From Baffinella frigidus (lineage: Eukaryota > Cryptophyceae > Cryptomonadales > Baffinellaceae), in contig MU646325.1 of assembly GCA_026770585.1 (NCBI GenBank), forward strand, positions 594,407 through 616,026: a stretch of 21,620 nt of DNA, given 5' to 3'. Positions 216 to 20,940 of this stretch are shown in pieces; position 1 is the stretch's first letter; every line of letters begins with the position of its first letter. Under the pieces are notes generated by a model. That model ran no database searches and was not told where the DNA came from. It saw only the letters and a list, made by a program, of their open reading frames with translations. The translations under genes were made by a program, and so were the position numbers.

Positions 216-3200
216 CTGCAGGGATGCGGCGGGTAACTGCCCCGGACGATGTTTGCTCCAGAAGGTATTGTAGATTTCAGCTTCAGACCGATTTTGGACC
301 GGGGTTCGAGGATCGGGAAATCACTAAAAAGCATCCTGTATGCCATATTAGGTATGGGTTTTATGCCAAGATAGCATTGCCCACAATCAACACGTCACAA
401 AACGCAAACTCTCCCTCGAATTTTCATTTCCGACCCGCGCGAAGCCAAAACCTACAATTCCCAAGCTTCTAATTAGAGCAGATATTGTTCGCAGCTGGAA
501 AAGGGACGCGGTGAGCCCTCATGGAATGAGACAGAGGTAGACGACACCTGGACGAGCAGCAGGTGGGTGGCGCCGTGCGCCGCCGCGATTGACTCCAGGT
601 GCTTCGAGAGCGCTGGGCCCTGCCGTTTAGGGATGCGGGGTTAGCCCCCGAATCTCGCTGGAACGCCGCCAGCCACTCGGAAGAGCTCTTCCAGGGCGGG
701 GAGCCGCGCACGACAATCCACGCACGACAAAAAAACGTGCATGCCGCATGGCTGGGGTCTGGACCGATTTTAACTATTACATACATTAGTTATAATCGGT
801 CCAGTTTATTTTATGACTTGTAGAATGGCTGGGGGCGGACCGATGCGCCCGAAGGTTTGATGATGGGCACGCCGCTAGCCACTTGGAAGAGCACGGGCGG
901 GGAGCCGCGCACGACGATGTAGCTCGCGCGCGTTTTGCCGACTTCGAAAACCTGCGAAATAAAGATGTATTTCACTAAATCTTGCGGATTACGTAATTGA
1001 ACTGCCCCACCCCCCCCCCTCCCCCAGCGAATCAAGACTTTTGTAGGGCTTATGGCGTAGGTCTCAAGGGTTTAGGGTTTTGGGTTTAGGGTTTTGGGTG
1101 TAGGGCTTAGGGCGTAGGGTTCAGTCTCAAGACACAATACGCACAGACCTACACAGACTCGACACAGTCGGCAGCCTCCCCCGATGCGCCTTCAGAAGAG
1201 GTGGTTTTGCAGGAGGGAAGGGGGAGGGGGAAAGAGAGCCCGAGGCAAAGACAGCAGGCAGGTATTGGGGCGGCGCCACAAGGGTGCATCACAAGCGGAC
1301 CTGCTCGGTCTCGACAAAGTCGGCAGCCTCCCCTGATGAGTCCACGCCTGCCCAAACACGGAAAACACCAGCGCTTCAGAAAACGCTTCAGAAAACGGAA
1401 AACACCCGCGCTTCACGATTCAGATATTCACGAATTTTGGGAACCACCGCGCTTCACGACTCGGACTAGCCAAACAGGGGGGAAACGACAGAGATTCACG
1501 GCCCCGGCCTTTCAAAAAACAATTGCGGCTTAGCCTCAACAGCAAACACAACTTGAACGTCGCTGCGTAAATCGCGAGTGCCCAATCCCTGGCAGGTGCC
1601 ACACGTACGTCGCCTCATTGAAAGAAAAAAATGGTACTGTACAAGAAACAAATCGAAAGAAAAATTTGCTCCACGCAAAAGTTGCACCAAGCAATTTGCT
1701 TCGGAAGCTAGGGTTTATAAGCACCTGTTGCGCGGCGAGGATAGAGCGGGTCTCTGATTAGTTCAATGAAATTTACTACACAAGTTGACTCATTTTGTTC
1801 GTTGCTAATTTGCTTTTCGAGGTCTGAATCGTGTCAACTAATCAGAGACCCGCTCTACGCGCGCACGCGCCCCCGGCGCACGAGGAGCGTGAGCGTCAAA
1901 TCGAGTCTAACTTCCGCTGGCGCTGCATGCATCGCGAGTGCCCAAACCACCGGGAGGAAACCACGCGTGCTGGGACCCTCCAGCGTTGAGGAAAATGTTA
2001 CCCGACTGACGCGAGCCCCGGGACTACCGCAGGTGGGGACCTGCCGGATCTGCCCCCACCTACCGCAGGTGGGGACCTGGGACCTCACCTGTCGCGCGGC
2101 GCGGATACGCGCGCACGCGCCCCCGTCGCGCGAGGAGCGTGAGCGTCGCGCTCCGCCCGTCCTTGGCCACGGGCAGCCCCGCCTGCAATCACCCCGCCGC
2201 ACGTCGGTTAATAACATGTCATCCTGAACTCGAGGAGTTCAGGATGACGTGTTGTACTGTACAGAGCAGTTTTGTGGCTCGAAAATGAATGGACGTGGGA
2301 TTGCGGGGAGGCTCGGGCCATGCTGTGGTCTGCGTTAATAGGGTGACTGCCTAAATTCAGGGTGTTTGCCTACGGTATTGACTACGGCGTACGATGGTCA
2401 ATACGCCCCCCGGCGCTGCCCGTCCTTGGCCACGGGCAGCGCCGCTTGCCGTCAGAGGGCGGGGTCACGGGGAGGTTCCTTCAGGGAGCGAAATGTCGGT
2501 TACTGAATTGAGATGTCTTTGAAATGTCGGTTACTAAATTAAGATGTCTTTGTACTGTACAGAGCAATTGTAAATCAGTGCCAAGAAAATAAATGGACCT
2601 ATCCGTCTGAAGTAATGAGGCGGGGCGGGGTCACGACGAGGCTCGGGCCTCCCTTTTGTCAACCGACTCAAACATCAACCGGCTCCAACGTGTTGGATTC
2701 GGTGTGTAAAGGGTTTCGCTGTATCAAGTTCAGTAAAGATACTTTCTCTCGTGCAGGATGTTGGCGCATTTCGCTGAATCGATTTTCAGTGAAGCCACTT
2801 TCTCTCTCGCAGGATTCTCTGGGGCGGCGTGGAAGAGGGACATTCATAGGAAAACGACCCGAAATTAGGGTAGTTTAGCCTACGGATCTCCTATGACCAG
2901 ACCTACCGTAGGAGACAGGTCTCCTAGGACCAGGTCCTCGGAGCCTCTCGGCCTACGGTAGGCAACCCGTAGGCTAAACTACCCTAATTTCAGGTCGTTG
3001 AACAATCAACATGGGAAGTCAAAACTGGATTCGGACCTGGACGACAGCGCCTTGGATGAATCGCGTGACCCAGGCTGCGCCCTCGCCCCCCACCGACTCC
3101 AGGCCTGGTTTCGGGTTTTGGGGATTAGGGATCAGTCCGCCCGTGGTAAAATTCGGGCTGGGGGAGAGCGAGCGAGCGAGCGAGCGAGAGAGCGAGAGAG

Positions 3201-5886
3201 AGAGAGGGAGGGAGGGAGGGAGGGAGAGAGAGAGAGAGAAGCAATTTACGGGAAATCGGGAAGCAGGCCGGGGCTGCAAAAACACCCAACCACACAGTGG
3301 CCTTCAAAGGAGATTTGGATCCAAAATCCAATCGAAATGTCAATGAATTAAAATTTGCACACCGTTCTACAGTAGTCCACCACCCAACGCAAATCAAAGG
3401 GGGTTCTGTCAGACCGAGGGTCATCTCCTGATTCCAAAAAAATCGGTCAACGTAACTCTCTCTCGCCCCCCCCCCGCCTCCTCACGGGCCTCAATAGATT
3501 GTCATTTTTTTTGGGACTTGAAGCCATTTCTGAGCTTAACTCACTTTTAGGGGTTTATTCCATCTCAGGTTTACCAGATTTTTTTGAGATGGACGCCTGC
3601 TAACAAAATATAACTTATTATGGGCTGGAAATAGACCGAGAGCCATCTCCTTATTCCAGAGAAACCGGTCGAAGTAGCCTTCCCCCGCCTCCTCCTCCAC
3701 GGCCTCAATAGATTCTATCTCAGATTTGGGAGGGGCTTGGAGCCGTTTTTCTCATTTCTGGGGGTTGAACCAACATAAATCTATTAGATGGATGCCTTGC
3801 GAAATATAATGTATCATGGGGGGTGGGACTAGACCGAGAGCCATTTCCTTGTTCCAGAGAAATCGGTCGAAGTAACTTTCTCCCGCCTCTCCCCCACCTC
3901 CTCCCGGGCCTCCAGGGTGCGCGACGATGGGCCGCGAAAGGTCGAATCTGCGTTTAGGGTTGAGGGTTTAGGGTTTAGATTTTCCCTGCCCCCCCCCCCC
4001 GCCTTCCTCAGGGCCTCCGGGGTGTGCGAAAATCGGCCGCGAGAGGTCGAATCTGCGTTTTAGGGTGTAGGGTTTAGGGCTGAGGTGTGGGGCTCGCGTT
4101 AGTCGGGAAACTGGATGATTCACAGAGCTTTCCCCCGCCTTCCCGGAAGCATGTTCAGTTAAAAACACGATTTGTGTTATCTTAAGCAACTCTCCCCGCC
4201 CCCCCCCCGGCCTCCTCCCGGGCCGCCAGGGTGTGCGACAATCGGCGGAGAAAGGTCGAATCTGTATTAGTCGGGGGCTCGCGTTACCACCAGCAATCCG
4301 AAGTAACGTACTCAAGGTTTTCTAAGCCCTCGGATCCTCGTACTAATCCATGAAATCTGGGTTAGTCGGGATACTCTTCGTCCTTTGCGTTGCAGAGAGA
4401 GAGAGAGAGTTCAGCACAAGTTTGATGTGGAAAGGCCCTTTTTCGATCAAAAAGGGACCCTAAATGTCGCTTTTGGTCCAAGTGCATTCCTCAAAAAAGT
4501 CACTGGGGAACGGATCCACCTGGGTCCACCAGGACTCCTAGCTCTATCCCAGTTCAATTTGGGCTTGTAGATAGAGTGCCCCCTCCCCCAATTTTCACAG
4601 GTGAATTTCATGGGGGTGTGTCAAAATTTACCTGTGAATTTTCGGGGGGAGCACTCTATCTACGAGCCGAAATTGAACTTGGACAGAGCTAGGAGTCCGA
4701 AACAGACTTGCCGAGTTGGTCTCCAAAGGTCGATGTGCATGGATGAGTTGCCCGCGCAGGGCACCTCCCTGGTACGCATGGAAGTTTGGAAACAAACTCG
4801 GTGAGTCCAGTTCGGAGTCTTGGTGGGAGGTTGCTCACTCCAACAGCAACCCGTTGCATATTACAACCGGGTCGGGTTGATTTCAGGTAAACCGGACATA
4901 TCTGTCCGTATCTCCGTCAGCAATTCCGAGGCCCCTAGGGCCTGCTACCGTAGGGTCCCTACAAATATACCAAAAAAAAAATGTTTCCGGATTCTTGCAA
5001 GGATCCGGTAAATACTGCTACGGGTTGCTGCTGGCTCGTGGGAGAAGAAAAACCCTTGTTATTTTTTGAATGAAAACAAGCAGGGACCACAGAAGATTGG
5101 AGGATTATCGCATGTGGGTGGTTGCTGACTCGTAGGAGAAGAGGAAGCCTTGCGAAGAGAGGAACTGCTCCACTTTCCGAGCGTCTCGCGCGATCCCTTC
5201 GTTCACCGACCTGCTTATGAATGAAAATTCAAAAAAATGTTGGATAACCATCAAATAGTGAAATTCATGGTGTTGCAGAGCGGCATCCAGCCGAGCTGCA
5301 CAGACAGCGAGGCGTCACGCGACGCAGCACCTCTTGAGGCAAACATTCAATCATCAGCCCTCTTTTTTCACATTCAAATATAGGGTCGAATGACAGGCTG
5401 GGCGGGGAGCGACTTCTTCTCAGCGGGGAGGAGCGCGAACGGGAACAGATGCGCCTCCGTGACAGAGAAGATTGCGCCGCCGCACATCGTCGCAGCCTGC
5501 GTCGCCTGCGAAACCACGACGAGGAACGACTCCCGGTCTAGATGGAGGACCCCCATCACGGCAGCGATGCCCATTTCGACGGCGCCGGTAGGCCGCCCTG
5601 GCTGCGCCGCACGCACCTCGCCTGTGCGCCGGTCAATGCTCACGCCACCCCTCATCGAGCCGTGCCGCGAGTCGATCAGCACGAACGCGGCGGCAGTGAT
5701 GTGCAGCACCACGGGGCCCTCTGCACAGCGGGGGAGGTCTGCGCGGGTGAGCGATTGGTATTCTGAGCGGGTGAGCGAAGCGCTCGCGGAGGAGGGCGAC
5801 GACGACGCATGGTGTTCGCTCTCCAGCGCTGCATTCTTCGTCAGCCGGTCCGCCTCGGCCCAGTCGTCATCGCCATCGAGGGCCAT
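96..5886 (-). CDS. SAC1: Sac-domain phosphoinositide phosphatase, SAC1-like (nine exons; 3' end outside window)
   Basis: Sac-domain proteins remove phosphates from phosphoinositides (SAC1 itself: PI4P at the ER/Golgi). Nine minus-strand exons (5414-5886, 5130-5210, 3835-3947, 3037-3104, 2089-2182, 1301-1347, 841-951, 548-619, probably 96-215) join in frame with intron phases 2,2,1,0,1,0,0,0. Family landmarks appear in the correct order: N-terminal strands GVLHLDRESFLVVV and IFSVTEAHLFPF, GFLFSYE then FDLSRP, DRFLWN, WVTRFIQGAVVQ, TLTLLARRGRVRA, EAADFVETEQ, SYIVVRGSPPVLFQ, and a KHLESIAAAHGATHLLLV segment. The catalytic CX5R loop lies later in the family, so it should be beyond the left edge. 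A Ser/Ala-rich region of about 60 residues precedes the domain. FIG4- or synaptojanin-type Sac proteins are possible, but the FVETEQ motif favours SAC1. It is divergent from MED4. Confidence 0.85.
548..619 (-). CDS. SAC1: SAC1-like exon 8
   Basis: Acceptor GCAG at 620-623, donor GTCCAG|GTGTCG at 546-547; 72 nt, phase 0/0. It encodes ALSKHLESIAAAHGATHLLL, matching the Sac helix-strand FxxHFxxLxxxYGPVxxVNL. This is the last exon I place firmly; the catalytic exons must be off the edge. Confidence 0.72.
655..722 (-). repeat. echo of SAC1 exon 7
   Basis: Minus-strand ATTGTCGTGCGCGGCTCCCC is followed by a diverged GCTCTTCC-AGTGGCT-GCGGCGT, repeating the middle and end of exon 7 with an indel that breaks the frame. 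It lies in intron 7, downstream of the exon it copies. Confidence 0.7.
758..805. repeat. short palindromic hairpin
   Basis: CTGGACCGATTTTAACTA and TAGTTATAATCGGTCCAG form inverted arms around a 10-base loop within SAC1 intron 7. Confidence 0.7.
841..951 (-). CDS. SAC1: SAC1-like exon 7 (RGSxP)
   Basis: Acceptor TTTCGCAG at 952-959, donor GCATCG|GTCCGC at 839-840; 111 nt, phase 0/0. SYIVVRGSPPVLFQ followed by IIKPS matches the Sac strand SFVQxRGSxPxFWxQ...xKP. A frameshifted copy lies downstream at about 655-722. Confidence 0.8.
1040..1125 (+). repeat. telomere-like TTTAGGG repeats in SAC1 intron 6
   Basis: Degenerate gggtttagggttttgggttt array. On the coding (minus) strand it reads CCCTAAA, like almost all such arrays in the window. 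Confidence 0.7.
1155..1192 (-). repeat. echo of SAC1 exon 6 end
   Basis: Minus-strand GGGGAGGCTGCCGACTGTGTCGAG repeats the core of exon 6 (GEAADFVE), but the following codons have decayed to a TAG where exon 6 has CAG. It lies 150 nt downstream, in intron 6. Confidence 0.75.
1301..1347 (-). CDS. SAC1: SAC1-like exon 6 (FVETEQ)
   Basis: Acceptor GGCAG ending at 1348, donor GAGCAG|GTCCGC at 1299-1300; 47 nt, phase 1 in and 0 out. It encodes GVDSSGEAADFVETEQ, one of the most conserved Sac signatures (RGxDxxGxVANFVETEQ). A degraded copy with a stop lies downstream at 1155-1192. Confidence 0.82.
1742..1858. mobile_element. 117-bp inverted-repeat element (MITE-like) in SAC1 intron 5
   Basis: TAGAGCGGGTCTCTGATTAG at the left is mirrored by CTAATCAGAGACCCGCTCTA at the right. 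The interior is AT-rich without coding capacity. It is shaped like a non-autonomous MITE; I see no clear target-site duplication. Confidence 0.75.
1858..1899 (-). repeat. echo of SAC1 exon 5 end
   Basis: Minus-strand GACGCTCACGCTCCTCGTGC followed by GCCGGGGGCGCGTGCGCGCG re-encodes TLTLLVRRGRVRA, against TLTLLARRGRVRA in the exon, then hits a stop. It lies in intron 5, downstream. Confidence 0.75.
2089..2182 (-). CDS. SAC1: SAC1-like exon 5
   Basis: Acceptor GCAG at 2183-2186, consensus donor ACAG|GTGAGG at 2087-2088; 94 nt, phase 0 in and 1 out. TLTLLARRGRVRA matches the conserved Sac strand TLIxRRSRxRAGTR, but GTR after RA is replaced by YPRRAT. Both exon ends have degenerate copies nearby (2417-2445 and 1858-1899). 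Confidence 0.78.
2213..2253. repeat. near-perfect hairpin
   Basis: CATGTCATCCTGAACTC, a GAG spacer, then GAGTTCAGGATGACGTG. It sits in SAC1 intron 4 just upstream (minus sense) of the exon 5 acceptor. Confidence 0.75.
2417..2445 (-). repeat. echo of SAC1 exon 5 start
   Basis: GCTGCCCGTGGCCAAGGACG on the minus strand repeats the first codons of exon 5 (LPVAKDG). It lies about 240 nt upstream in intron 4, preceded by an AG. Confidence 0.75.
2715..2818 (+). repeat. direct repeat of about 50 bp, two units
   Basis: TTTCGCTGTATCAAGTTCAG... and TTTCGCTGAATCGATTTTCAG... both end in ACTTTCTCTC(G/T)...GCAGGAT. On the plus strand they resemble polypyrimidine-CAG acceptors but lie antisense in SAC1 intron 4. 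Confidence 0.6.
2855..2998. mobile_element. inverted-repeat element in SAC1 intron 4
   Basis: 31-bp arms: CGACCCGAAATTAGGGTAGT... at the left and its near-perfect complement ending ...ACTACCCTAATTTCAGGTCG at the right, around an internally palindromic GTAGG/CCTAC-rich core. It is MITE-like and has no ORF. Confidence 0.75.
3037..3104 (-). CDS. SAC1: SAC1-like exon 4
   Basis: Acceptor CAG at 3105-3107, donor CAG|GTCCGA at 3035-3036; 68 nt, phase 1 in and 0 out. It encodes AAWVTRFIQGAVVQ, the Sac segment usually read as W(V/I)xPxIQGFVxI. It joins exons 3 and 5 in frame. Confidence 0.78.
3160..3240 (+). repeat. GAGC/GAGA/GGGA microsatellite
   Basis: Purine-rich simple repeat in SAC1 intron 3 (pyrimidine-rich on the coding strand). 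The repetitive ORFs here are artefacts of it. Confidence 0.85.
3415..3700 (-). repeat. two tandem echoes of SAC1 exon 3 end
   Basis: Copies ending at 3637 and 3415 re-encode YFDRFLWNKEMAL and YVDRFFWNQEMTL, each followed by a G|GTCT donor as in exon 3. The nearer copy differs from the exon by three third-position changes over its last 40 nt. Units repeat roughly every 200 nt and include flanking GC-rich sequence. Confidence 0.8.
3835..3947 (-). CDS. SAC1: SAC1-like exon 3 (FDLSRP ... DRFLWN)
   Basis: Acceptor CAG at 3948-3950, donor CTCG|GTCTAG at 3833-3834, 113 nt, phase 2 in and 1 out. FDLSRP corresponds to the family's YDLT(H/R)S and DRFLWN to its RFxWN. A Gly/Glu-rich linker of about 18 residues separates them. 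Both ends of this exon are copied into the flanking introns: two extra starts at 4021-4052 and 4230-4261, and two extra ends at 3637-3700 and 3415-3490. Confidence 0.78.
3950..4090 (+). repeat. telomere-like repeats between exon 3 echoes
   Basis: gggtttagggtttaga and tttagggtgtagggtttagg tracts sit directly upstream (coding sense) of the exon 3 acceptor and of its first echo, so CCCTAAA lies where branch point and polypyrimidine tract are expected. Confidence 0.65.
4021..4261 (-). repeat. two echoes of SAC1 exon 3 start
   Basis: Starts at 4052 and 4261 each follow a CAG and encode FDLSRPIFAH and FDLSPPIVAH, against FDLSRPIVAH in the exon. Each differs from the exon at five positions, four of them third codon positions. 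Confidence 0.8.
4532..4698. mobile_element. CCTAGCTCTG-family TIR element, copy 1
   Basis: Ends GGACTCCTAGCTCTATCCCA and a mirrored TTGGACAGAGCTAGGAGTCC, with long imperfect inner inverted repeats (AATTTGGGCT.../...GAGCCGAAATT). Lies in SAC1 intron 2; no ORF. Related to copies at 7169, 8534, 14307, 14537 and 21011. Confidence 0.8.
5030..5055 (-). repeat. echo of SAC1 exon 2 end
   Basis: Minus-strand GGGTTTTTCTTCTCCCACGA re-encodes GFFFSHE against GFLFSYE. It lies in intron 2, downstream of exon 2. Confidence 0.65.
5130..5210 (-). CDS. SAC1: SAC1-like exon 2
   Basis: Acceptor AAGCAG at 5211-5216, donor GA|GTCAGC at 5128-5129. It encodes a helix-like stretch ending EQFLSSQGFLFSYE, the Sac 'GFYFSY' strand. 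Phase 2 in and 2 out (81 nt). The reading frame also stays open to a TAA at 5105-5107, but the phase match with exon 3 decides the donor. Confidence 0.75.
5414..5886 (-). CDS. SAC1: SAC1-like exon 1 (start codon)
   Basis: The ATG at 5884-5886 has A at -3 and G at +4 and opens MALDGDDDW. An in-frame upstream ATG at 5962-5964 exists but adds residues without resemblance to the family. The exon holds a low-complexity Ser/Ala stretch and then the start of the Sac fold (GVLHLDRESFLVVV, IFSVTEAHLFPF). The donor AAGAA|GTCGCT is weak; I chose it because it gives phase 2, which matches exon 2. Intron 1 and exon 2 both begin with GTCG, a short direct repeat across the intron. Confidence 0.75.
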
Positions 5887-6159
5887 GTTGCAAAGGGTTT
5901 CGACTTGGGGAATAGGGGGCGGAATCTTAGTCAGCACTGGCCACTTTTGGAGGTTTGACCACAAATCTTAAGTCAGCATCGGCCACTTTTGGGCAGGATC
6001 CTCGACAGGGCTGTCTTTCTCTTCTCTCGATCAGAGACCGCCCCCCTGCTTCCCCATCCTGCGGGATCCGGGTTGGCCTGACCTCCCGCGGCCCTTAGAC
6101 GCTGGGAAGGCTGGAGTCGGGAGGGGCCCCACACGTAGGCAGCCTTGATTCTCAGCAGC
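5887..6159. promoter_or_regulatory. bidirectional promoter between SAC1 and MED4
   Basis: The 273 bp between two divergent start codons. It contains a 25-bp direct repeat (see 5926-5991). I see no convincing TATA box. It presumably drives both genes; inferred from layout only. Confidence 0.5.
5926..5991 (+). repeat. direct repeat in the bidirectional promoter
   Basis: Two copies of CTTA(A)GTCAGCA..GGCCACTTTTGG about 40 bp apart. They could be paired binding sites. Confidence 0.55.
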
Positions 6160-6318
6160 ATGGCGGAGGATGGCGGCGGGGCGCCGAAGCGCATGGCCAA
6201 GGAGCTGGAGGTGCTCGAGGGCCTGACCAAGACGCTCCTGAACACCATCTCCGGCTCATCCGTCCCGAATGGCCGTCGCCAGGGCTCAGGCGACGAGATC
6301 CAGGCCCTCGTGCGGCAA
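6160..6318 (+). CDS. MED4: MED4 exon 1 (start codon)
   Basis: AGCAGCATGG has A at -3 and G at +4. It encodes MAEDGGGAPK then the LEVLEGLTKTLL helix. The donor CGGCAA|GTCTTG is the phase-0 option; the frame stays open to 6477, and a GC donor (CAG|GCACAC, about 6337) would add six residues resembling exon 2. The start is firm, the end is not. Confidence 0.65.
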
Positions 6319-12688: not shown

Positions 12689-12772
12689 TCAGAGGACGCC
12701 AGCGCGCTGGACGATGACCCGCTGTAGCGGCTTGTTGGCCCCACAAAACGAGTTCTTCGACCCGTAGTAGCA
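12689..12772 (-). CDS. cyclophilin exon 11 (stop codon)
   Basis: Acceptor CCGCAG at 12773-12778; 84 nt, phase 0; ends QRAGVL and TGA. NKPLQRVIVQRAGVL is the last strand of the cyclophilin barrel (family: KPLKxVxIxxCGxL). Confidence 0.8.
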   Translation of the reverse strand, partial: CYYGSKNSFCGANKPLQRVIVQRAGVL

Positions 12773-15700
12773 CTGCGGGGGGGGCGGGGAGGGGGGGGGG
12801 TAAGTGGACGTTTTTTGCGTGAGGGGTTCGGCTGAAGGGGTTTCAGAGGTCGACGGTTGTTTTAGAGAACTTTTGTGGGTGTATCCCTTAAGTGACCAAC
12901 GGGCGAATAATCGCCCGTGGAAGCCCTAGACAGGTTCTAGGGCCCTACGGCAGGGCGTATGAGCCTACTGGTCACTGAAGAGATAGGTCGGCGGCCTAGC
13001 TAAAAAAAACGTCCACTTAAACAAGGCCCCGCAAAACGCGTTCTTCAAGCCGTAGTACAGGGTTACCTCGCGCATAAGAAACCTAGTCCGTGGAGAGGCA
13101 CAGAGGGTTTCAGGCGTACTGCGGCCAAAGTCAAGGTGGCGTCGTGCTCTCCCCCCCACATCCGATCGCTTCTCGACGCTTCCAGAACATTCTGGTCGCT
13201 TCCAGTCTCTTCTAGAAGAATCTTCGTTAGTCCGTGACAAGACACGGATGGAATTTGGGTGTACCGCGGCCAACGTCGAGGTGGCGTCATCCTCTTCTCC
13301 CCCATTTAGTCGCTTCTAGACGCTTCTAGAACATTCTAGTCGATGCCAGTCTCTTCTAGAAGCATCTTCTTGGTCTTCTAGAAGCATCTTCTTTGGTTCT
13401 AGAAGCATCTTCGGTGGTGGCAAAGCCCTCAGGGCTAAAAGGTGTACCGCGGCCAACGTCGAAGTGGCGTCGTCCTCTCCTCCCCCCATCCCTCCGGCGA
13501 ACTGCTTCACCTGCTCCGCCGCGCCGCGTTAAGTAAAAAAAAAAAAGTTTACTGAGTTGAGAGTTGAGAGCTGAGAGCTCAAAAATTTCTTCGTAAATGT
13601 GAGACCTTTGTGACTAAGGATGGACGCCCTAATCCCGGCGTCAACCTAACAACGGCCTTCCGTAGTTTGCTGCTGTATACACTACGATAGGGTGGTACCG
13701 GATGCCGTAATTAGGCACGGAGCGGTGCGTAAGTGTGAGACGTTTATGACTACCTACACGGCCGACATGTATGCACCCGCACCGAAGCTGTGTCTGGGCA
13801 GGGACGAGAGCGGTCGCGTGGTTGCTCACTCAGCGTGGGATGGGTGCAATCCGGATACACCCGTGTTTTCTCTCGGCGTGGGGGGATTCAGGGTGTGGGG
13901 TTCAGGGTGTGGGGTTTAGGGTTTGGAGTTTAGGGTTTGGGGGTTTGAGTTTTTGGGTTTGGGGTTTAGGGTTTGGGGTTTGAGGGTTGGGGTTTGAGGG
14001 TTGGGGTTTGGGGCTTTGGGTTGGGGGATTTGTGGTTTCGGGTGTTGAGGGATTGGGACCGGAGTGTTGTTGAGCTTCGCGAGAATGTCACCCCCCTCAA
14101 GCACCTGCCGGTTGAAAAAGGGTTTGGGGTTTTAGGGTTTAGAGTTCAGGGTTTAGGGTTTGGGGCTTGAGGTTTAGGGGGAATCACGGGTCACACGGGT
14201 CAGATAACTCCTCACTTGCAGGGAGCGTTTAGGTTTTCACTGGCCGGTGTTCACACGATACATGTAGAACCAAATCAGGAAAATGTTTGACTTGGGAGGG
14301 CCGGTGAAACTTTAGCTCTGCCTCACTCGGGTTGACCGACTTTTCTCAAGTTAACACGGTAGGTCCGCGGTACAAATCCGTTAACTTTGGCGCGGGAAAG
14401 AGCCCGGGCTCACCAAATCGGTGAGCCCAAATAGACTTTAGACAGAGATAGGTCTCATCACCTGGCCAAATACGACATTGGTCTTGTCGATGTTGCTGTT
14501 GGCAGCAGGTGCGATCGATAACTCGAACTGCCGAACCCTAGCCCTGCCTGAGTGAAACTGGGCTCGCCATAAAACACATTTAGAGCAGAAACTCCAGTAT
14601 AAAACGGCGACTAAAAGAGGTTTATGGCGAGCCCAGATTTCCTCAGGCACAGGTAGGCGTTGAAGAGCAACCTGGCCAAAGACGACGTTGGTCTTGTCGA
14701 GGTTGCTGTTGGCCGCAGGTGCGATCGAGAACTCAAACTGCCCCCCCCCCTTCCGTGCCGATACCATCCCGGGCCTGGATTTGGGTTTCAGGTTCACGAA
14801 ATCGAGTCCAGAGTTTAGGGCTAAAACTGCCCCCAACCCCTTCGTTGTTGACGCCACACCAGGCCTGGTATTTGGGTTTGGGGGTTGGGGGTTGGGGTTT
14901 GGGGGTTGGGGGTTGGGGGTTGGGGGTTGGGGGTTGGGGGTTGGGGTTTGGGGTTTGGGGTTTGGGGTTTGTGGTTTGTGGTTTGTGGTTTGGGTTGTTG
15001 GGTTTGGGGTTTGGGGTTTGGGGTTCAGGGTTTAGGGTTCAGGGTTCAGGATTTAGCGCCCCCCCCCCTCCCGGTCACACGACCTAGTACGGGGGACAGG
15101 TGCGCGATCAGAGGTCCGAGGGTCCCTGGCAGGCCTCAGCCTGGAGTGAAACAGCTCGCTGAATAAAATGTTGGATCACTCATTTCCAGGCTTCAAATTA
15201 ATAAAGAAGAAAGACAAGAAGCTCCCTAAATTTGAAGCGAGTTTTCCGACGTGTGACGGGGTGAGAGGGAGTACCGATCATGTGTGAGGGCGTTGGCGTC
15301 TGCGCTTTCTGGTGCCTGGAAATCGTTCAAGTGATTCAGTGGATACACTCGAAAGGTGCGGCAATCGAAAGTTGCGGCATTCGAAAGTTGCGGCAATGGT
15401 GGGGGGGTGACAAAACCTTCCAAACGAGTATCCAGATGAATACGATTCAGGGGATTTCCGATCTCAAGGCTCTCAATGAAGTCTAGGCAGACGAATGTCT
15501 CATTTCTACCCTTTATAAACCAAAATTGTAATTATTATGAATACTCGGCGGGATTAAATACCTTCCGGAGGAGGAATTTGCCTTTCAGGCGCCCGAAATC
15601 GACCCGCTTGTCCTTGATGATCCTCCAAACCTGTTCGCAAAAAGTGGGGTTAGAGTTCATCACAGAGCTTCGCATTCCAGTTCAATCAAGGTTAAGGGTT

Positions 15701-18700
15701 TACGCGTCAGAGTTTCGGCTTTCGGGGGTTTACGGTTTACGGTTGGGGGGTTCGGGGTTCGGGGCGGGCGGAGGGGGGGCAAGCTGAGCAGTGCGCTACA
15801 GGTCAATCAAGGTTTGGGGTGTACGCTTCAGGGGTTCGGGTTTCGGGTTTCGGGTTGAAGATTTCAGGTTGAAGGTTTCGGGTTTGGGGTTGAGGATTCA
15901 GGGTTCAGGGGCGGGGGGGGGGGGCGAGCTGTCGCGTTCCAGGTGAATCCAGGTACAGGGTTCGCCCTTGAGAGTTTCGGGTTTAGGGTTTCGGGGAAAG
16001 GGGGTCACCGAGCTGTCCAAGAGGTCGACAGGCTTCTTCTCCGACGCTTTACACTGCCGGGCGGGGAGCAGGCGTCAACTTTAGACACCACCTCAACTTT
16101 CAATTGGCAGGGAGCAGGCCTGACCTTGAGATCAAACCTCAACTTTAGAAGATTTTCGTGGTGAGGCTTCCTGCTTGATGGGCCGCTTTTTCTGGAGTGC
16201 TTCCCGTGCGATCGCCTGTGACTCGCGAACAAGGACACGCAACGCACCTAGGATGGTGATATGCTCCTAGGCGTAGCCCTGACGTACGACCCGAGGGCGG
16301 TGCGTGTCCATAATTCCGAGCAACCGCTATGGGGACGCTCGTGCGCCACGCGAAACCCTGAACCCCGAAATCCCTGAACCTGTTTGATGGGCTGCTTCTT
16401 CTGGAGGGCCTCGCGCGCGATCGCCGCCTCGATTATCACCTGCGTGGTTGGGGGTGTAGAGTTGAGGGTTTAGAGTTCTGAGAGCACCCGTCAGTTCACA
16501 AAGGGGAATTTGCCCAAAGTTGATGATAGAGATGTGTAGAATGTTTGTACCAGATACACGCCAAAAGACAAAATAGCGCCCGGCGGCGATCGCTGCCTCG
16601 ATTATCACGTTTGGGGTTGAGGGTTGAGGGTGGTGGTTTTCCGGTGTAGGGTTGAGGATTTGGGGTTCAGCGTTTTAGGGTTGAGGGTTTAGGGTTCGGG
16701 GTTGAGGGTTTACGGTTTAGGGTTTGGGGTCTAGGGTGTGGGGTGTGGGGTTGAGGTGTGAGGTTTGAGTGTTTAGGGTTCAGGATGCAAGAGGGGCTAC
16801 ACGGTCTACCCGAGAAATTCAAAGCAGGCAACCCGAGTTCGTCGCGTCACTTGATAGAATCTGTTTCGCGACGCGTCGATCTAACGGATTTCTGGTGGAT
16901 GGGAGGGAAGGCAGGCCTCTTGGCACGGCACGCCCACCGCCGACGGCCCTAGCGCTCCTACGAGAAACCCTAGCGCTCCTACGAGAAACCCAGGCCTGGG
17001 GGCCCTACGGCCCACCGTGGTCAATACCGTAGGCTCAACTACCCTGAATGTAGGGTGTTGCCCTATGAAGGAGGATGGGAGGGAAGGCAGACCTCTTGGC
17101 ACGGCACGACCAGCGTCCCGGCAGCCACCGCCTTGAACATCGCCGCTGCATTATGGCCACTTTGTTTTAGGTTGCAAACGTCCGTCTGGCTCCGAGGCGG
17201 CTCCACAGATGGCCGCTGCACGGCCATCTGTGCAGCGGCCATCTGACTACTGCATACAGTGCCACAAGGAGGCTGGTAACGGTCGTAACGGTCGCATCGG
17301 TACCACCACACGCGGGGTACCCCCGGCTAGGTCATTCAGGGTTTGATTGCTCCCAACGTAGGCGGACACCTTTATTCGTGAGAGGTCGGTGGCACGGTTG
17401 GTCAAGGCACTTGACTCTGCACCAGCATCTTAGGTCATCTTCCAAGATTCGTTGGGGGAGCTCAAGTCGCGCTCGCTGTACATTTCGCAATGCTCAAGTA
17501 CGACGTTTTCGTCGTACTTTTTCGAAAAACGAGAGGATGAAAGTACATTTCACAAAACGAGAGGTCCAAAGTACATTTCGCAAAACGATAGGTCCGAAGC
17601 GCATTTCGCAAAACCAAAGGTTCCAAGAACATTTCGCAAAAAGAGAGGGTCGAAACCTGTTTCGGGGGCGTCTTCCCCGAAGAGCCCAATCACGATTCGC
17701 CCCTCCAACGCCTGCCAACCCGTTTCAGGATTCATTTTGGAGGCTAGGGGAATCGAAACCACACAGCGGGCTACCACGGGATTTTCTGCCCAAATCGGGC
17801 CACCTTTCCGTTACCTTATCCGTGGGAACCCCCACTATGTCCGTACGGGTTGCCTACCGTAGGGTCGTACGTCTTATCGCTTAGGGGTTATTCAAACCCC
17901 CGTCGACGTCCGCGGTGTGAATGGTGTAAAGTGGTTGAGAAGACAACATCGTGATCTTGGTAGGGGATGAACCGCCTGTGCGTCGAGGTTCGAGCTCCGC
18001 CCCTCGTTCGCCTTGTTTGCTGAGTTCACGCCCTGCACCGCGTTTGAGGTTTAGGGTTTGAGGTGAGGGGTTTAGGGTTTAGGGTTTCGGGTTTGGGGTT
18101 TAGGGTTTAGGGTTTGGTGTTTAGGGTTTAGGGTTTGGGTGCAGGGCTAGGGATAGGGGTTCAGGGTTTAGGGGTTAGGGTTTAGGGTTTGGGTTTAGGG
18201 TAAAGAGTTCAGGGTAAAGAGTTCAGGGTTGAGAGTTGAGGGTTTAGGGTTGAGTGTTGAGGGTTCAGGGTTTAGGGTTCAGGGTTTAGGGAGCTGGGTT
18301 TAGGGTTTAGGGTTGAGAGTTTAGGGTTTAGAGTTTAGGGTTTGGATTTCAGAGTGTATAGTTTATGGTTTATGGTTTATGGTTTATGGTTAGGGGTAAG
18401 AGTTTAGGATTCAGTGAATGGGATTTAGGGTTTTGGTTTCAGGGTGTAGAGAGATCACCTGGATCTTGATGTCGATGAAGACCCTGTCAGTCACAACTCC
18501 CACAGCCTCCACTGCTTCGGAGAAGGACAAGGAGAAGAAGAAGAAGAAGAAGAAGGACAAGAAGAACAAGAAGAACAAGAACAAGAAGAAGAAGAAGCAG
18601 AACAAGAACAAGAACAAGAACAAGAACAAGAACAAGAACAGGTACAAGAAGAAGAAGAAGAAGAAGAAGAAGAAGAAGAAGAAGAAGAAGAAGAAGAAGA

Positions 18701-19691
18701 AGAAGAAGAAGAAGAAGAAGAAGAAAGACAATCATCGCCATGGTCGTAAACCGGCCCAACCCCAGAGAGGTCAGCGAGAGGTGAGAGGTCAGAGATGGCA
18801 CCTGGATCTTGATGTCGAGGAAGATCCGGTCGGTCACAACCCCCGCAGCATCCGCTGCTTCCACAACCACCGCCTCAACAGCCTCTGCCGCCTCCTCCGG
18901 CAGCGCGTCCGCCGCCTCCACCGCCTCCGCGACCGCCTCCTCCTCTGCCACTTCCTCCTCTGCGACGGCGTTCTTGGCCCACGCTTCCCCGGGGGCGAGC
19001 ACCTGCCTCGGTGAAAGGGGTTGAGGGACCACCAACCCTCACGGTCGGACCAAATCGACGGTTTGTTTCAGCCATTTCTTTTAGACAGAGGGGGTGAACC
19101 CGACCCCCCCGTAGGGGAGATCCGAGATCTTAAAATCGACGATTTGGTCGTCCCGTGAGGGTTGGTGGGATAGTCGTCATGGTTTCGCGAGTCGGCTCCC
19201 ACGAACCCTCACAGTTCGGCCAAGTCGCCTTAGGGGGGTCCCGTGATGTGCACTGGAACCCGTCGAAATCCTCTCAGGGGTTTTTCGATGGACGTCTACA
19301 GAGCATGGCCACCGAGGGGCATCAACACGCTCCACGGCCAGAGCAAACTTCCCTGGCCAGAGCAAACTTCCCTTTCTAGCTCAAGCCCCACAAGCACCCA
19401 GCCGCCAAGCCCCGCTCGTACCTGCAAGAGAGCGCCCAGTCCCACCGGCAGCATCACGCTTCCAACCACGCCGCGCCTGTCTATGGGTGGCGAGCGGAAC
19501 GAAGACTCTTGTCTGGCAATTCCTCCGCTGCACATCTTCATTCCACCAGCGTGCCCTGCATCCGGGCGGCGGAGGGAGAGCGCGGCGGAGGGAAGAAGTG
19601 ACGCGGCGGGGGTGGGCACGAGGAAGGCGTGGGCGTGGGTGCACAGGGCGAGCACGAGGGCCGCCCCGAGAGCAGATCTGACCCCCACCAT
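12689..19691 (-). CDS. cyclophilin-type peptidyl-prolyl isomerase, predicted thylakoid-lumen form
   Basis: Cyclophilins isomerise X-Pro bonds; lumen forms help fold and assemble photosystem proteins. Eleven minus-strand exons (19422-19691, 18802-19002, 17657-17711, 17093-17145, 16380-16439, 15562-15630, 15275-15315, 14672-14774, 14060-14104, 13448-13510, 12689-12772) join in frame to 1044 nt (347 residues plus stop). Leader: signal peptide with AHA|FLVP, transit region, then RRGVVGSVMLPVGLGALLQ with an AWA cut site. Fold landmarks in order: VTDRIFLDIKIQ, GRIVIGLFGEDAPET, MFKAVAAGT, VWRII, LTHDRPGMVS, FEFSIAPAANSNLDKTNVVF, VLEGGDIL, NKPLQRVIV. The Arg of the usual FHRI is kept (VWRI), but several other active-site residues appear replaced (HVVFG is NVVFG), so catalysis may be weak. 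It is divergent from the gene at 20234. Confidence 0.87.
12801..13019. mobile_element. 220-bp inverted-repeat element in cyclophilin intron 10
   Basis: TAAGTGGACGTTTTTT at the left, AAAAAAACGTCCACTTA at the right. Inner AGTGACCA/TGGTCACT and GGGCGA/TCGCCC palindromes. No ORF. Confidence 0.7.
13026..13058 (-). repeat. echo of cyclophilin exon 11 start
   Basis: TACTACGGCTTGAAGAACGC on the minus strand re-encodes YYGLKNAFCGA, against YYGSKNSFCGA. It lies about 285 nt upstream of the exon. Confidence 0.75.
13120..13301 (-). repeat. two echoes of cyclophilin exon 10 end
   Basis: Copies ending at 13120 (EHDATLTLAA) and 13265 (EDDATSTLAA) match the exon end EDDATSTLAA, each followed by a GTACxCC donor like the exon's own GCG|GTACAC. 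TTCTAGAAGCATCTTC-type repeats lie between the units. Confidence 0.75.
13448..13510 (-). CDS. cyclophilin exon 10
   Basis: Acceptor GAGCAG at 13511-13516, donor GCG|GTACAC at 13446-13447; 63 nt, phase 0/0. VKQFAGGMGGGEDDATSTLA fits the helix before the last strand (family: QFxxxxxxxGDxRA). Confidence 0.7.
13885..14040 (+). repeat. TTTAGGG-like repeats in cyclophilin intron 9
   Basis: gggtttggggtttagggttt array; CCCTAAA/CCCCAAA on the coding strand, starting about 20 nt after the exon 9 donor. Confidence 0.85.
14060..14104 (-). CDS. cyclophilin exon 9
   Basis: Acceptor CGGCAG at 14105-14110, donor CTCCG|GTCCCA at 14058-14059; 45 nt, phase 0/0. VLEGGDILAKLNNTP equals the cyclophilin VLEGMDVLxKI segment. 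Confidence 0.8.
14307..14457. mobile_element. CCTAGCTCTG-family TIR element, copy 4
   Basis: ACTTTAGCTCTGCCTCACTC at the left, GACAGAGATAGGTCTC at the right, with a GGGCTCACC.../...GGTGAGCCC hairpin inside. It starts within 5 bp of the donor of the exon 8 echo. Confidence 0.7.
14462..14527 (-). repeat. echo of cyclophilin exon 8 end (66 nt, with CAG before and CAG|GT after)
   Basis: It re-encodes FELSIAPAANSNIDKTNVVF plus GQ, against FEFSIAPAANSNLDKTNVVF plus GQ. Six differences in 66 nt, five at third positions, none disrupting. It could be a functional alternative exon, although splicing both in series would duplicate 22 residues. Confidence 0.85.
14537..14659. mobile_element. CCTAGCTCTG-family TIR element, copy 5
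   Basis: CCTAGCCCTGCCTGAG...GGGCTCGCCATAAA mirrored by TTTATGGCGAGCCC...CTCAGGCACAGGTAGG. It makes up almost the whole 144-nt segment between exon 8 and its echo. Confidence 0.82.
14672..14774 (-). CDS. cyclophilin exon 8 (active-site region)
   Basis: Acceptor TCCAG at 14775-14779, donor GGCCAG|GTTGCT at 14670-14671; 103 nt, phase 2 in and 0 out. With exon 7 it gives HDRPGMVS, then a GGGQ turn and FEFSIAPAANSNLDKTNVVF. The family's Trp before LDxxHVVFG is Asn here, and the His is also Asn. Confidence 0.85.
14860..15055 (+). repeat. GGGTTGGGG / TTTGGGG repeat array
   Basis: Nearly pure gggggttggg then ggtttggggt units, ending in tttagggttc. The Gly/Leu/Val-repeat ORFs here are artefacts. In cyclophilin intron 7. 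Confidence 0.9.
15275..15315 (-). CDS. cyclophilin exon 7
   Basis: Acceptor TTTCCAG at 15316-15322, donor GATCG|GTACTC at 15273-15274; 41 nt, phase 0 in and 2 out. It encodes APESADANALTHD(R), and completes LTHDRPG only when joined to exon 8, which supports both boundaries. Confidence 0.75.
15352..15401 (+). repeat. GAAAGTTGCGGCAATC triplicate
   Basis: Three near-tandem 16-bp units (cgaaaggtgcggcaat, cgaaagttgcggcatt, cgaaagttgcggcaat) in intron 6 just upstream of exon 7. Confidence 0.75.
15562..15630 (-). CDS. cyclophilin exon 6
   Basis: Acceptor CGAACAG at 15631-15637, donor CGGAAG|GTATTT at 15560-15561; 69 nt, phase 0/0. It encodes VWRIIKDKRVDFGRLKGKF. VWRII replaces the family's FHRxI and the usual QGGD is absent. 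Confidence 0.8.
15690..15990 (+). repeat. degenerate GGGTTTCGGG / TTTAGGG tracts
   Basis: Two blocks, each ending in a G-run plus cgagctg, with AGGTCAATCAAGG or AGGTGAATCCAGG preceding. Telomere-like repeats in cyclophilin intron 5. Confidence 0.75.
16171..16218 (-). repeat. echo of cyclophilin exon 5 end
   Basis: It re-encodes AIAREALQKKRPIKQ against AIAREALQKKQPIKQ. Seven differences in 45 nt, six at third positions. Unlike the exon it has no GT after CAG. Confidence 0.82.
16380..16439 (-). CDS. cyclophilin exon 5
   Basis: Acceptor CACGCAG at 16440-16446, donor AAACAG|GTTCAG at 16378-16379; 60 nt, phase 0/0. VIIEAAIAREALQKKQPIKQ is a helical insertion before VWRII. I do not recognise it from canonical cyclophilins; splice signals, frame and echo conservation support it. 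Confidence 0.7.
16569..16607 (-). repeat. echo of cyclophilin exon 5 start
   Basis: GTG ATA ATC GAG GCA GCG ATC GCC re-encodes VIIEAAIA, then diverges. It lies upstream of the exon. Confidence 0.75.
16608..16790 (+). repeat. TTTAGGG/TTGAGGG-like repeats
   Basis: ggttgagggttgagggt, ggtttagggttcggg and gtgtgggg units in cyclophilin intron 4, directly upstream (coding sense) of the exon 5 start echo. Confidence 0.85.
16917..16935 (-). repeat. echo of cyclophilin exon 4 end
   Basis: CGTGCCGTGCCAAGAG, followed by intron sequence CTGCCTTCCCTCCCATCC, repeats the exon 4 end and donor flank. The donor GT is GC here. Confidence 0.75.
17093..17145 (-). CDS. cyclophilin exon 4
   Basis: Acceptor ATGCAG at 17146-17151, donor CAAGAG|GTCTGC at 17091-17092; 53 nt, phase 1 in and 0 out. 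AMFKAVAAGT is the cyclophilin helix TxxNFxALCxG. An earlier donor (CTG|GTCGTG) would also be phase-consistent and omit VVPCQE. Confidence 0.75.
17203..17244. repeat. perfect palindrome
   Basis: CAGATGGCCGCTGCA, CGGCCATCTG, TGCAGCGGCCATCTG: a nested hairpin in cyclophilin intron 3. Confidence 0.8.
17540..17655 (+). repeat. 29-bp minisatellite, about four units
   Basis: AAAGTACATTTCGCAAAACG...GGTCC units with small changes, abutting the exon 3 donor. The ORFs on both strands here are repeat artefacts. Confidence 0.85.
17657..17711 (-). CDS. cyclophilin exon 3
   Basis: Acceptor TTGGCAG at 17712-17718, donor GAAACAG|GTTTCG at 17655-17656; 55 nt, phase 0 in and 1 out. ALEGRIVIGLFGEDAPET is the canonical second strand (family: GRIVIGLFGxxVPxT). 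Confidence 0.88.
18040..18450 (+). repeat. TTTAGGG repeat tract in cyclophilin intron 2
   Basis: About 400 bp of gggtttagggtttaggg with ggttgagggt, ggtttatggt and agagttcagg variants; CCCTAAA on the coding strand. Longest telomere-like array in the window, internal. Confidence 0.9.
18458..18519 (-). repeat. echo of cyclophilin exon 2 end
   Basis: It re-encodes EAVEAVGVVTDRVFIDIKIQ against EAADAAGVVTDRIFLDIKIQ and keeps a CAG|GTGATC donor. Eight differences in 60 nt, all conservative. A long CTT polypyrimidine tract precedes it on the coding strand. Confidence 0.82.
18530..18725 (+). repeat. AAG/AAC trinucleotide and hexanucleotide microsatellite
   Basis: (AAG)n, (AACAAG)n, then about 80 bp of pure (AAG)n. 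The apparent poly-Lys, poly-Phe and poly-Leu ORFs are artefacts. Confidence 0.95.
18802..19002 (-). CDS. cyclophilin exon 2 (mature N terminus)
   Basis: Acceptor GAGGCAG at 19003-19009, donor ATCCAG|GTGCCA at 18800-18801; 201 nt, phase 0/0. VLAPGEAWA completes the lumen signal, an Ala/Glu/Val-rich acidic spacer of about 45 residues follows, then VTDRIFLDIKIQ, the first cyclophilin strand. Confidence 0.82.
19029..19168. mobile_element. inverted-repeat element in cyclophilin intron 1
   Basis: CACCAACCCTCACGG...CGGACCAAATCGACG mirrored by CGACGATTTGGTCG...CCGTGAGGGTTGGTG. A partial third arm (cgaaccctcacagttcggcc) lies at 19202-19221. Confidence 0.75.
19422..19691 (-). CDS. cyclophilin exon 1 (plastid/lumen leader, start codon)
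   Basis: The ATG at 19689-19691 has G at +4. MVGVRSALGAALVLALCTHA is a hydrophobic signal peptide; AHA|FLVP puts Phe at the first transit-peptide position, the hallmark of red-lineage complex plastids. An RR-initiated hydrophobic lumen signal ends the exon. Donor TTGCAG|GTACGA, phase 0, 270 nt. Confidence 0.82.
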
Positions 19692-20233
19692 TCGATGACA
19701 CCCGTGGCGGACTATTCGTAAGTTGACACAATGTGGGTTTTGCCGTCAACTTTGGAGGTCAAAGTGCGCTGCGCAGCAAACAGATGCGCCCAAATAAACC
19801 TCCGAGGATTTTTTTCGCCCGACAAACGAGGCGAGGAGAGGCCGTGTTTTTTCCTCAGGTCGATGGCGATTCTCCCTCTATTTGCGACGAAGCCCGCGTG
19901 TCCACAACCCATTCCCGAACAGGCACCCACCTGCGGGCCACTTCCTCGCTTTTGAGCCTCGTCTGTGGAGAATCATCCGTCTTTTCTTGTGCTTGGATCC
20001 TCGAGCACCGCAGCTCCCAAACCAGCGACATCTGAATGGTGCATGCTCGACCGCGCGTGTTCCACCACGCTGAGCGAGCCGCGGTGGCGCCCAGAGCAGG
20101 CCGCGAGACGCTGTGCAGCGCACAGAAGGTGCCCGAGGTCTGTCTTCCTTATCCGGTGCCCTCGAGCAGGCGAAGACTGTGATCGGACAGCCCCGGTACC
20201 AATAGACCGGCGAGGATGGGACGACTAGGAGCC
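19692..20233. promoter_or_regulatory. divergent intergenic region (putative shared promoter)
   Basis: 542 bp between the cyclophilin start (minus) and the ATG at 20234 (plus). ORFs on both strands lack family features and overlap each other. No clear TATA box. Regulation is inferred from layout only. Confidence 0.4.
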
Positions 20234-20338
20234 ATGGCGGCGGCCAACGACGCGCGTGAGTCCCTCGCATCTGGACCGCCCCTCGCTCCCCCGGAAGAGT
20301 TCGCTCCTGCGAAGGGGGAGCCCATGACTTCCCCAGAG
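20234..20338 (+). CDS. first exon of an unrecognised gene
   Basis: GAGCCATGG start context (G at -3 and +4), 35 codons, MAAANDARESLASGPPLAPP and on to MTSPE, ending at a consensus donor GAG|GTGCGT, phase 0. The Pro/Ala-rich N terminus has no diagnostic motif. I cannot assign a function. Confidence 0.55.
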
Positions 20339-20450
20339 GTGCGTCTTCGCTCCTCCATACACGCAAGCGACTAGAGCATCCTGTCCGAAAGAGCCCGCGG
20401 GAGAGTGTGGCGGCGCGGGAAAAGCCTACACCGTTTTTGCGCCCCCGCAG

Positions 20451-20507
20451 CATCCTCAAAACTGCGCACAGCGGACATGTGGAGTCGCGTGTTACGAAAT
20501 GGCCGGC
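20451..20507 (+). CDS. possible second exon of the same gene
   Basis: CCCGCAG acceptor, GGC|GTGCTG possible donor, phase 0/0, encoding HPQNCAQRTCGVACYEMAG, which has three Cys. Its last 8 nt plus intron flank (CCGGCGTGCTGTGCTGACCC) are repeated at 20566-20585, the same edge-echo pattern as the other genes. Confidence 0.35.
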
Positions 20508-20565
20508 GTGCTGTGCTGACCCGGGGATGGGGCAGGTGATGTTGACCGGAGAGTGCGCGGCATGG

Positions 20566-20590
20566 GCCGGCGTGCTGTGCTGACCCGTGG
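20566..20590 (+). repeat. direct repeat of possible exon edge
   Basis: GGCCGGCGTGCTGTGCTGACC followed by C(G/C)... matches 20501-20521 almost exactly, including sequence past the presumed donor. Confidence 0.7.
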
Positions 20591-20754
20591 GGCTTTCGTG
20601 TGCGTGCTTTGAAACCTCTCACCGCTTCACTAGATCCTGTAAAAAAAGGTCGTAATGTAACCTTCTGAACCCGGGGGAGAGCAGGTGGCGCTGTGCGTCG
20701 CGATGACTGGGTGGGTGGTGATCGAGGTTTGCAACATGCACGGGTCATCTCCTA

Positions 20755-20940
20755 CACCCTTAACCCTAAACCCTGCACCCTGCACCCTAACCCTCATTCC
20801 TAAACCTAAACCCTACACCATAAACCCTAAACCCTGAACCCTCACCCTAACCCTTGGCCATAAACCCTGAACCAGAAACCAGAAACCATAAACCATAAAC
20901 CATAAACCATAAACCGTAAATCATCAACCATAAACCCGCA
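20755..20940 (+). repeat. CCCTAAA-type repeats
   Basis: ccctaaaccctgcaccc, ccctacacc and accataaaccataaa units, C-rich on the plus strand, consistent with an intron of the plus-strand gene at 20234. Confidence 0.85.

Follow-up and report, generated by a model that had tools for sequence, protein, structure and literature searches.

Tandem genomic duplication using AGGT is an established route of intron gain (review PMC3443670), and in a potato RNA-dependent RNA polymerase gene a tandem duplication crossing an exon–intron border created a new intron (Ma, Lan and Niu, 2016; PMC4974935). In mammalian cells, breaks give rise to small tandem duplications through fill-in synthesis by Pol alpha-primase/CST followed by end joining (PMC8355091), and introners are accompanied by target duplications of 3-9 bp (PMC9860276). 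Here we describe a stretch of 21,620 nucleotides from Baffinella frigidus (C23:594407-616026, in a 382-Mb assembly with 1,364 contigs; the whole stretch is called the window below) in which copies of exon ends lie in the adjacent introns. We call these copies echoes, and we consider it very probable that they are the remnants of ordinary small tandem duplications that crossed exon–intron borders and were tolerated since the copy adjoining the exon is the one that is spliced. To our knowledge, border-crossing tandem duplication has so far been known from single cases. The kind of duplication is thus already known; the new part is that a quarter to a third of the sampled exon borders have copies, and that the outcome is plain intron lengthening.

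As in potato (PMC4974935), tandem duplication across the intron–exon border doubles the acceptor and the start of the exon; there, however, the outcome was a new intron and a retained small piece of exon, whereas in Baffinella the intron appears to have lengthened by taking in the spare copy. The Baffinella units are local and tandem like those of PMC8355091, with copies that abut or lie a few bases apart, but the mechanism of that work was demonstrated in mammalian cells, and what is seen in Baffinella is the layout of the junctions. The main text of PMC9860276 has no mention of Baffinella or of any word beginning with 'crypto'. Among the titles and abstract openings listed from open-licence PubMed Central papers, none dealt with the introns of Baffinella or with exon-edge echoes on a wide scale, and none described a genome with such copies at a quarter to a third of its sampled borders and plain lengthening of introns as the result.

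Three genes of the window could be modelled, and Pfam is consistent with all three names (Pro_isomerase, Med4 and Syja_N):

548..5886, minus strand: SAC1-domain gene (phosphoinositide phosphatase type), seven exons modelled and one unresolved; Pfam PF02383 Syja_N, E = 2.6e-24
6160..11950, plus strand: MED4 gene, nine exons modelled by reference to Guillardia theta protein P0008; Pfam Med4, E = 1.9e-10
12689..19691, minus strand: cyclophilin-type gene, 13 exons, a letter-for-letter map of the annotated B. frigidus protein P0001; Pfam Pro_isomerase

The terminal 45 nt of the 29 exons (the whole exon if shorter) were aligned to the introns on either side (26 in all), and each comparison was set against 100 dinucleotide-shuffled sequences. 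The side is termed correct when the copy of a 5' edge lies upstream of the exon and that of a 3' edge downstream. Correct-side echoes at z > 5 were obtained in 16/52 tests, with one more case at z = 4.8 (SAC1 exon 2), against 3/52 on the wrong side (SAC1 exon 5 and cyclophilin exons 6 and 12); all three of these exons measure less than 90 nt, and the aligned bases belong to both of their 45-nt ends. The 5' echo of cyclophilin exon 10 (z = 8) depends on a short G-rich alignment. Under a stricter rule (score 34, simple sequence excluded) 14/49 window edges have an echo. An earlier note on this DNA had claimed that exon edges are copied into adjacent introns and that the side is nearly always correct, and had proposed a genome-wide comparison of exon ends with flanking introns against shuffles. 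Both claims hold in the window and in further gene families, and in comparisons of this kind the copies are more frequent and more side-specific than chance, in the window and at the sampled loci. The echoes and related repeats of the window are the following:

660..717, minus strand: 3' echo of the SAC1 exon at 883-951, z = 13.6; 33/36 exon and 15/17 intron positions identical, with a 5-base gap
1146..1186, minus strand: 3' echo of the SAC1 exon at 1301-1347, with its donor, z = 16.6
1722..1897 (aligned core 1856-1897), minus strand: 3' echo of SAC1 exon 4 (2089-2182), z = 13.1
2413..2454, minus strand: 5' echo of the same exon (2089-2182), z = 19.7; acceptor AG lost
3411..3912, minus strand: recurring unit of ~220 bp surrounding a putative SAC1 exon (FDRFLWNKEMALGL, plus two variants), from a repeat scan; exon border not fixed
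5022..5058, minus strand: weaker 3' echo of the SAC1 exon at 5130-5210, z = 4.8; donor GT changed to GC
7136..7169, plus strand: 5' echo of the MED4 exon at 7467-7535, with CAG, z = 11.1; a hairpin element (7169-7305) follows immediately
8875..9012, plus strand: 5' echo of MED4 exon 5 (9183-9279), z = 29.9; 77 intron and 61 exon positions aligned
9859..9932, plus strand: 3' echo of the MED4 exon at 9552-9691, z = 21.7
10151..10349, plus strand: extra, more diverged copy of the end of MED4 exon 6 and its intron; 156/199 aligned positions identical
11018..11078, plus strand: 5' echo of the MED4 exon at 11317-11608, with CAG, z = 25.2
13025..13057, minus strand: 5' echo of the final exon of the cyclophilin gene (12689-12772), z = 15.3
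13113..13303, minus strand: two tandem 3' echoes of the cyclophilin exon at 13448-13510, z = 23.8; spacings of 183 and 143 bp
14460..14532, minus strand: 3' echo of the cyclophilin exon at 14672-14774, z = 30.1; flanked by hairpins at 14537-14657 and ~14313-14454
14821..14879, minus strand: 5' echo of the same exon (14672-14774), z = 8.0; short, G-rich, the weakest of the z > 5 set
16170..16216, minus strand: 3' echo of the cyclophilin exon at 16380-16439, z = 17.0
16575..16640, minus strand: 5' echo of the same exon (16380-16439), z = 17.5; acceptor lost
16894..16948, minus strand: 3' echo of the cyclophilin exon at 17093-17145, z = 11.2; 23 intron positions included, GT changed to GC
18450..18518, minus strand: 3' echo of the cyclophilin exon at 18802-19002, with its donor, z = 30.3; beyond a GAA/TTC microsatellite
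20501..20590 (20501-20526 and 20565-20590), plus strand: 26-bp direct repeat in a putative fourth gene, from a repeat scan

Cyclophilin exons 4, 5, 8, 10 and 11 of the earlier note are exons 5, 6, 10, 12 and 13 in the present numbering, and its SAC1 exons 5, 6 and 7 are now 4, 5 and 6. Its SAC1 'exon 3', said to be echoed at both ends, does lie in a unit of ~220 bp that recurs at 3411-3912, although the border of this exon is not fixed; likewise, the single echo that it placed in a fourth gene exists as the 26-bp repeat at 20501/20565, but the gene itself is only putative. Its possible echo at MED4 exon 1/2 was not confirmed on scoring (z = 0.5 for both facing edges).

Further exons were drawn by family from the same genome, from CCT chaperonins and protein kinases and then from kinesins as a replication, and were picked without regard to echoes. 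Matches to hidden Markov models (HMMs) were used as stand-ins for exons, the ends of a match not always being exon ends. The samples comprised 10/10 CCT matches, 62/108 kinase matches (30 loci and 32 fetched, mostly short matches and clusters) and 24/45 kinesin matches (short ones). Among the 72 CCT/kinase matches, a score of 28 together with z > 5 gave 28/144 edges on the correct side and 1/144 on the wrong side, the latter in telomere-like sequence; with z > 5 at any score the counts were 31/144 and 3/144 (C662, C302 and C132). The stricter rule gave 24/78 correct and 0/74 wrong for CCT/kinase matches of up to 210 nt, and 2/66 and 0/66 for the longer ones (33/72 matches). The kinesins gave 19/48 and 3/46. 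Their wrong-side cases come from two matches, C506:56113 and C112:294252, which are themselves echo copies of C506:56373 and C112:293979; leaving these two out, a post hoc choice, gives 17/44 and 0/42. Five of the 24 kinesin matches hold a stop, and only the two that pair with a neighbouring match as its copy were dropped. As chance controls at a score of at least 34, shuffled flanks gave 0/390 and the flanks of other loci 6/452. Pooled over the three gene sets (window, kinase/CCT and kinesin), 55/171 short-exon edges have an echo, a count that leaves out the matches longer than 210 nt, or 59/241 of all edges when the long matches and the two echo matches are included; the potato case is one gene.

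The origin of the copies is clearest in the young cases, in which tandem units span the exon edge, the splice site and the intron, including tens to hundreds of intron bases. Nine units have copies in the same orientation no more than 9 bp apart and measure 79-253 bp; a copy spacing equal to the unit length is tandem duplication by definition. The young units, among them a longer one with more widely spaced copies (C506:57080), include the following:

C632:237766, 204 bp: the last 48 bases of the match and ~150 bp of intron
C123:77833, 253 bp: five bases between the copies
C112:293979, 252 bp: a third copy present; copies overlap in realignment
C506:57080, 369 bp: 337/349 columns identical; 20 bp between the copies
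C487 (115 bp), C2:1189821 (118 bp), C422:50917 (141 bp), C469 (253 bp) and C6 (79 bp): one to seven bases between the copies, five in C6

The border has no fixed position within the clean units, which contain ~20-62 match bases out of 79-253. The tandem duplication across exon–intron borders proposed in the earlier note is therefore seen directly in these clean units. In the window, cyclophilin exon 12 has a tandem unit of 183 bp in a heavily gapped alignment, but most window units are older; their alignments cover the exon part and only sometimes extend into the intron part (MED4 exon 5, SAC1 exon 6 and cyclophilin exons 5 and 12), with only 0-3 aligned intron positions in several pairs. A tandem unit predicts that the gap between the copies is homologous to the outer flank, and this was found at z > 5 in 15/42 pairs (16 from the window and 26 from the kinases and CCT), a few of the 15 lying in repeat-rich DNA. 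We infer that the older, decayed echoes share the origin of the young tandem units.

We propose that a small local tandem duplication (79-253 bp in the clean cases, 369 bp in one) would happen to cross an exon–intron border, leaving the pre-mRNA with two copies of a splice site. Splicing at the copy that adjoins the intact exon would keep the gene working, the other copy would turn into intron, and the intron would gain one unit in length. The spare copy would then drift neutrally and be broken by indels, microsatellites, telomere-like repeats and inserted hairpin elements, and repeated rounds would give arrays of several copies. The duplications themselves were presumably made by the repair of staggered breaks. 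Introns with a z > 5 echo in the window are longer than those lacking one (n = 14 versus 12; median 664 bp versus 341 bp; two-sided p = 0.025). This is the outcome predicted if introns expand by duplication, although an echo also finds more space in a longer intron.

The side rule follows from the same geometry. When an acceptor and the start of its exon are duplicated, the order becomes acceptor, partial exon, acceptor, complete exon. The complete exon is obtained from the second acceptor alone, and the spare copy must therefore lie upstream; the mirror image applies to the donor. Copies lie on the correct side because no copy but the one beside the intact exon can serve a working gene. Side is thus a matter of geometry and selection and is no evidence for a splice-directed process. 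The earlier note had argued from the side to one process acting on splice junctions, an argument that fails since the side is forced for any border-crossing tandem duplication.

Several observations nevertheless weigh against our explanation. Gap–flank homology at z > 5 is lacking in 27/42 pairs, one of the 15 passing pairs (SAC1 exon 4, 3') matches exon sequence split off by an insertion, and several clean units break into shorter pieces under a stricter gap penalty. That splicing uses the adjoining copy is deduced from protein models and not from transcripts. The share of exon–echo mismatches at third codon positions is slightly above the neutral maximum derived below, and single pairs look constrained (6/7 changes are synonymous at the 3' edge of cyclophilin exon 6). 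Finally, edges have copies more often than intron interiors do: 14/49 edges in the window and 24/78 for short matches, compared with 40 and 36 of 578 intron windows per side with exons masked, and with 53-61/508 (window) and 65-90/678 (beside kinase exons) unmasked. A model in which both copies of an intron pair drift, and only one of an exon–echo pair, gives edges an advantage of only ~1.5-fold, leaving a two- to threefold excess.

This excess is what would be expected if a process directed at splice junctions, through nicks or breaks linked to transcription or splicing or through intron hairpins, made borders mutational hotspots. Copies occur at ~29-39% of edges (window, short-match and kinesin sets) against 6-13% of intron windows per side, the modelled detection bias accounts for only ~1.5-fold of this, and some hairpins sit at the junction between copies (7169-7305 at MED4 exon 3, and at cyclophilin exon 10). 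Such direction is not needed for the side rule, however; the clean units reach far into the intron with the border at no fixed place, and several have no element at the junction as judged by eye. In accepted units, moreover, only 35/294 intron windows are recognizable, a calibration that presumes the tandem model; intron parts are thus mostly unrecognizable and intron-only duplications are probably undercounted. The leftover excess may instead reflect intron turnover by insertion, and many units may date from a time of shorter introns, when a unit of 100-200 bp would almost inevitably have reached a border. We therefore regard duplication targeted to splice borders as unlikely. The fuller version, in which the border is a duplication hotspot (from breaks due to transcription, splicing or hairpins), introns grow outward from their borders and splicing is forced to be strictly exon-defined, seems to us rather unlikely as well.

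That the echoes have a use, as alternative first or last parts of exons or as decoys that tune splicing, was suggested in the earlier note, and some features lean that way. Splice dinucleotides are often kept, with AG in 23/27 echoes and a donor in 18/24 (one a GC donor), scored by eye with 12 edges left out where the border was illegible or the match had been dropped. Mismatches between exon and echo lean to third positions, with 44, 39 and 103 differences at 634, 639 and 633 sites of codon positions 1, 2 and 3 (42 pairs). An echo drifting beside an exon that changes only synonymously gives a third-position share of up to ~0.5, however, and the 103/186 observed does not differ from this (two-sided p = 0.16). 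The splice sites show no departure from neutral decay either (0.87 expected; p = 0.77 for acceptors and 0.11 for donors). None of the 11 exon–echo gaps in the 42 pairs is a multiple of three, many single pairs being gapless; four stop codons occur in these echoes, and no echo at the eight z > 5 edges of the cyclophilin gene contributes to the annotated protein. The reading frame that an alternative or mutually exclusive exon would keep is not kept in the copies, and the suggestion of alternative exons or decoys fares badly with no gap in frame and mismatches that fit drift beside a constrained exon. A functional role is accordingly highly improbable, and from their sequences we conclude that most echoes are probably dead, with the look of neutral decay.

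The copies might instead be footprints of intron gain, left by duplication of an AGGT-bearing exon piece or by introner insertion with a long target-site duplication. It is accepted that new introns can arise by tandem duplication (PMC3443670), with a border-crossing example in potato (PMC4974935), and in both the AGGT model and Baffinella a coding segment with splice-like sequence is duplicated in tandem. In that model, however, the duplicated segment is exonic and creates the intron, so that a copy of the start of the downstream exon should be flush with the 5' end of the intron and a copy of the end of the upstream exon flush with its 3' end, whereas the window introns seem to be pre-existing and their echoes are internal; read by eye, the shortest distance between a window echo and the next exon is ~40 bp (at SAC1 exon 6). 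Baffinella introns are rich in inverted-repeat elements, a point in common with introners (PMC9860276), but the echoes are local copies of the host exon with alignments of 33-138 positions, longer than the 3-9 bp target duplications described in that paper. Nor are the echoes dispersed and flush with splice sites as introners are: exon edges match the flanks of other loci in only 6/452 comparisons. We judge an origin in intron gain very unlikely; of the link to intron gain or expansion drawn in the earlier note, expansion is supported, the echo-bearing introns being longer, whereas gain is not, the window echoes not being flush with the opposite intron end.

An assembly artefact, from mis-joined haplotypes or from repeats collapsed or expanded, is barely credible. 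The scaffold is not gap-free (an N gap lies at 10709-10783), but most copies are several per cent diverged, many have unique sequence between them, their end points differ and the pattern recurs in dozens of contigs.

Other repeats lie close to the echoes. A TA-flanked inverted-repeat element at ~1744-1855, delimited partly by eye, splits the 3' echo of SAC1 exon 4; as it is inserted within the echo, the duplication looks older than the insertion. An intron segment farther out from this echo is also repeated, by eye. A short palindrome (759-804, within 747-850), apparently flanked by the 10-bp direct repeat ccccagccat (by eye), lies between a SAC1 exon and its echo, and a long microsatellite of GAA/TTC and AAC type at ~18520-18725 separates cyclophilin exon 2 from its 3' echo. 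Hairpin elements resembling miniature inverted-repeat transposable elements, with CTAGCTCTG-type ends, occupy 4532-4698, 7169-7305, 14313-14454 and 21017-21157. When the genome was searched at the DNA level with 4532-4698, 40 of 640 first-look candidates were scored; among the matches listed, other copies have 86-91% identity on the better strand. By their sequence the hairpins are a putative large family of non-autonomous elements. We considered them as the cause of the duplications but did not keep this as the main account: judged by eye, some junctions hold one, several clean units hold none and C469 seems to carry one inside. Long degenerate telomere-like tracts (TTTAGGG/CCCTAAA) run on both strands in introns and between genes (6593-6960, 9286-9540, 13880-14180, 14860-15060, 18040-18450 and 20750-20940).

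The SAC1 exon model was built from SAC motifs, its name being supported by Pfam Syja_N; the modelled exons are without the C-terminal part of the domain, and the unresolved exon sits inside a 2025-bp 'intron' between modelled exons 2 and 3. A homolog search for SAC1 gave none at E <= 0.001 among 7998 candidates scored. MED4 exon 7 contains an N gap, and GC donors are apparent in two MED4 introns, after exon 1 (6345/6346) and exon 6 (9691/9692). The N-terminus of the cyclophilin (19691-19422) has a signal peptide followed by AFLVP, which we take to resemble the plastid-targeting presequence of a red secondary plastid. Elsewhere in the genome, the kinase matches C811:139513, C546:254053, C477:124894 and C28:1221638 lie in open frames of 7,968 to 46,653 residues, implausibly long for a eukaryotic gene, which may be masked or N-filled stretches.

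The exons of the three window genes have a median length of 69 nt (29 modelled exons) and their introns one of 506 bp (26 introns, one of them hiding the unresolved SAC1 exon); short exons and long introns fit exon-defined splicing. When a duplication has just occurred, the two copies of a splice site share one sequence context, so that the choice between them must be positional. The splice pair that bounds the shortest exon would win, which is exon definition and the opposite of pairing across the shortest intron. Exon-definition splicing of short exons would thus render the duplications harmless. Internal gene duplications that take in intronic and exonic segments are reportedly frequent in the six genomes surveyed by Gao and Lynch in 2009; the per-gene frequencies reported there look lower than the per-border frequency in Baffinella, although the methods differ.

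The scale of the echoes and the exon-defined splicing that they imply are what make the pattern notable. With echoes on 55/171 short-exon edges (59/241 overall), border-crossing duplication may be a main route of intron lengthening in B. frigidus. The echo copies C112:294252 and C506:56113 score as kinesin exons in the HMM search despite their stop codons and are likely sources of false exons in annotation. In genomes of this sort an exon end that looks strong to a gene finder may be a copy. A young unit, finally, is a natural experiment with two near-identical splice sites in one pre-mRNA, and the site that is used would tell exon definition from intron definition in a cryptophyte.

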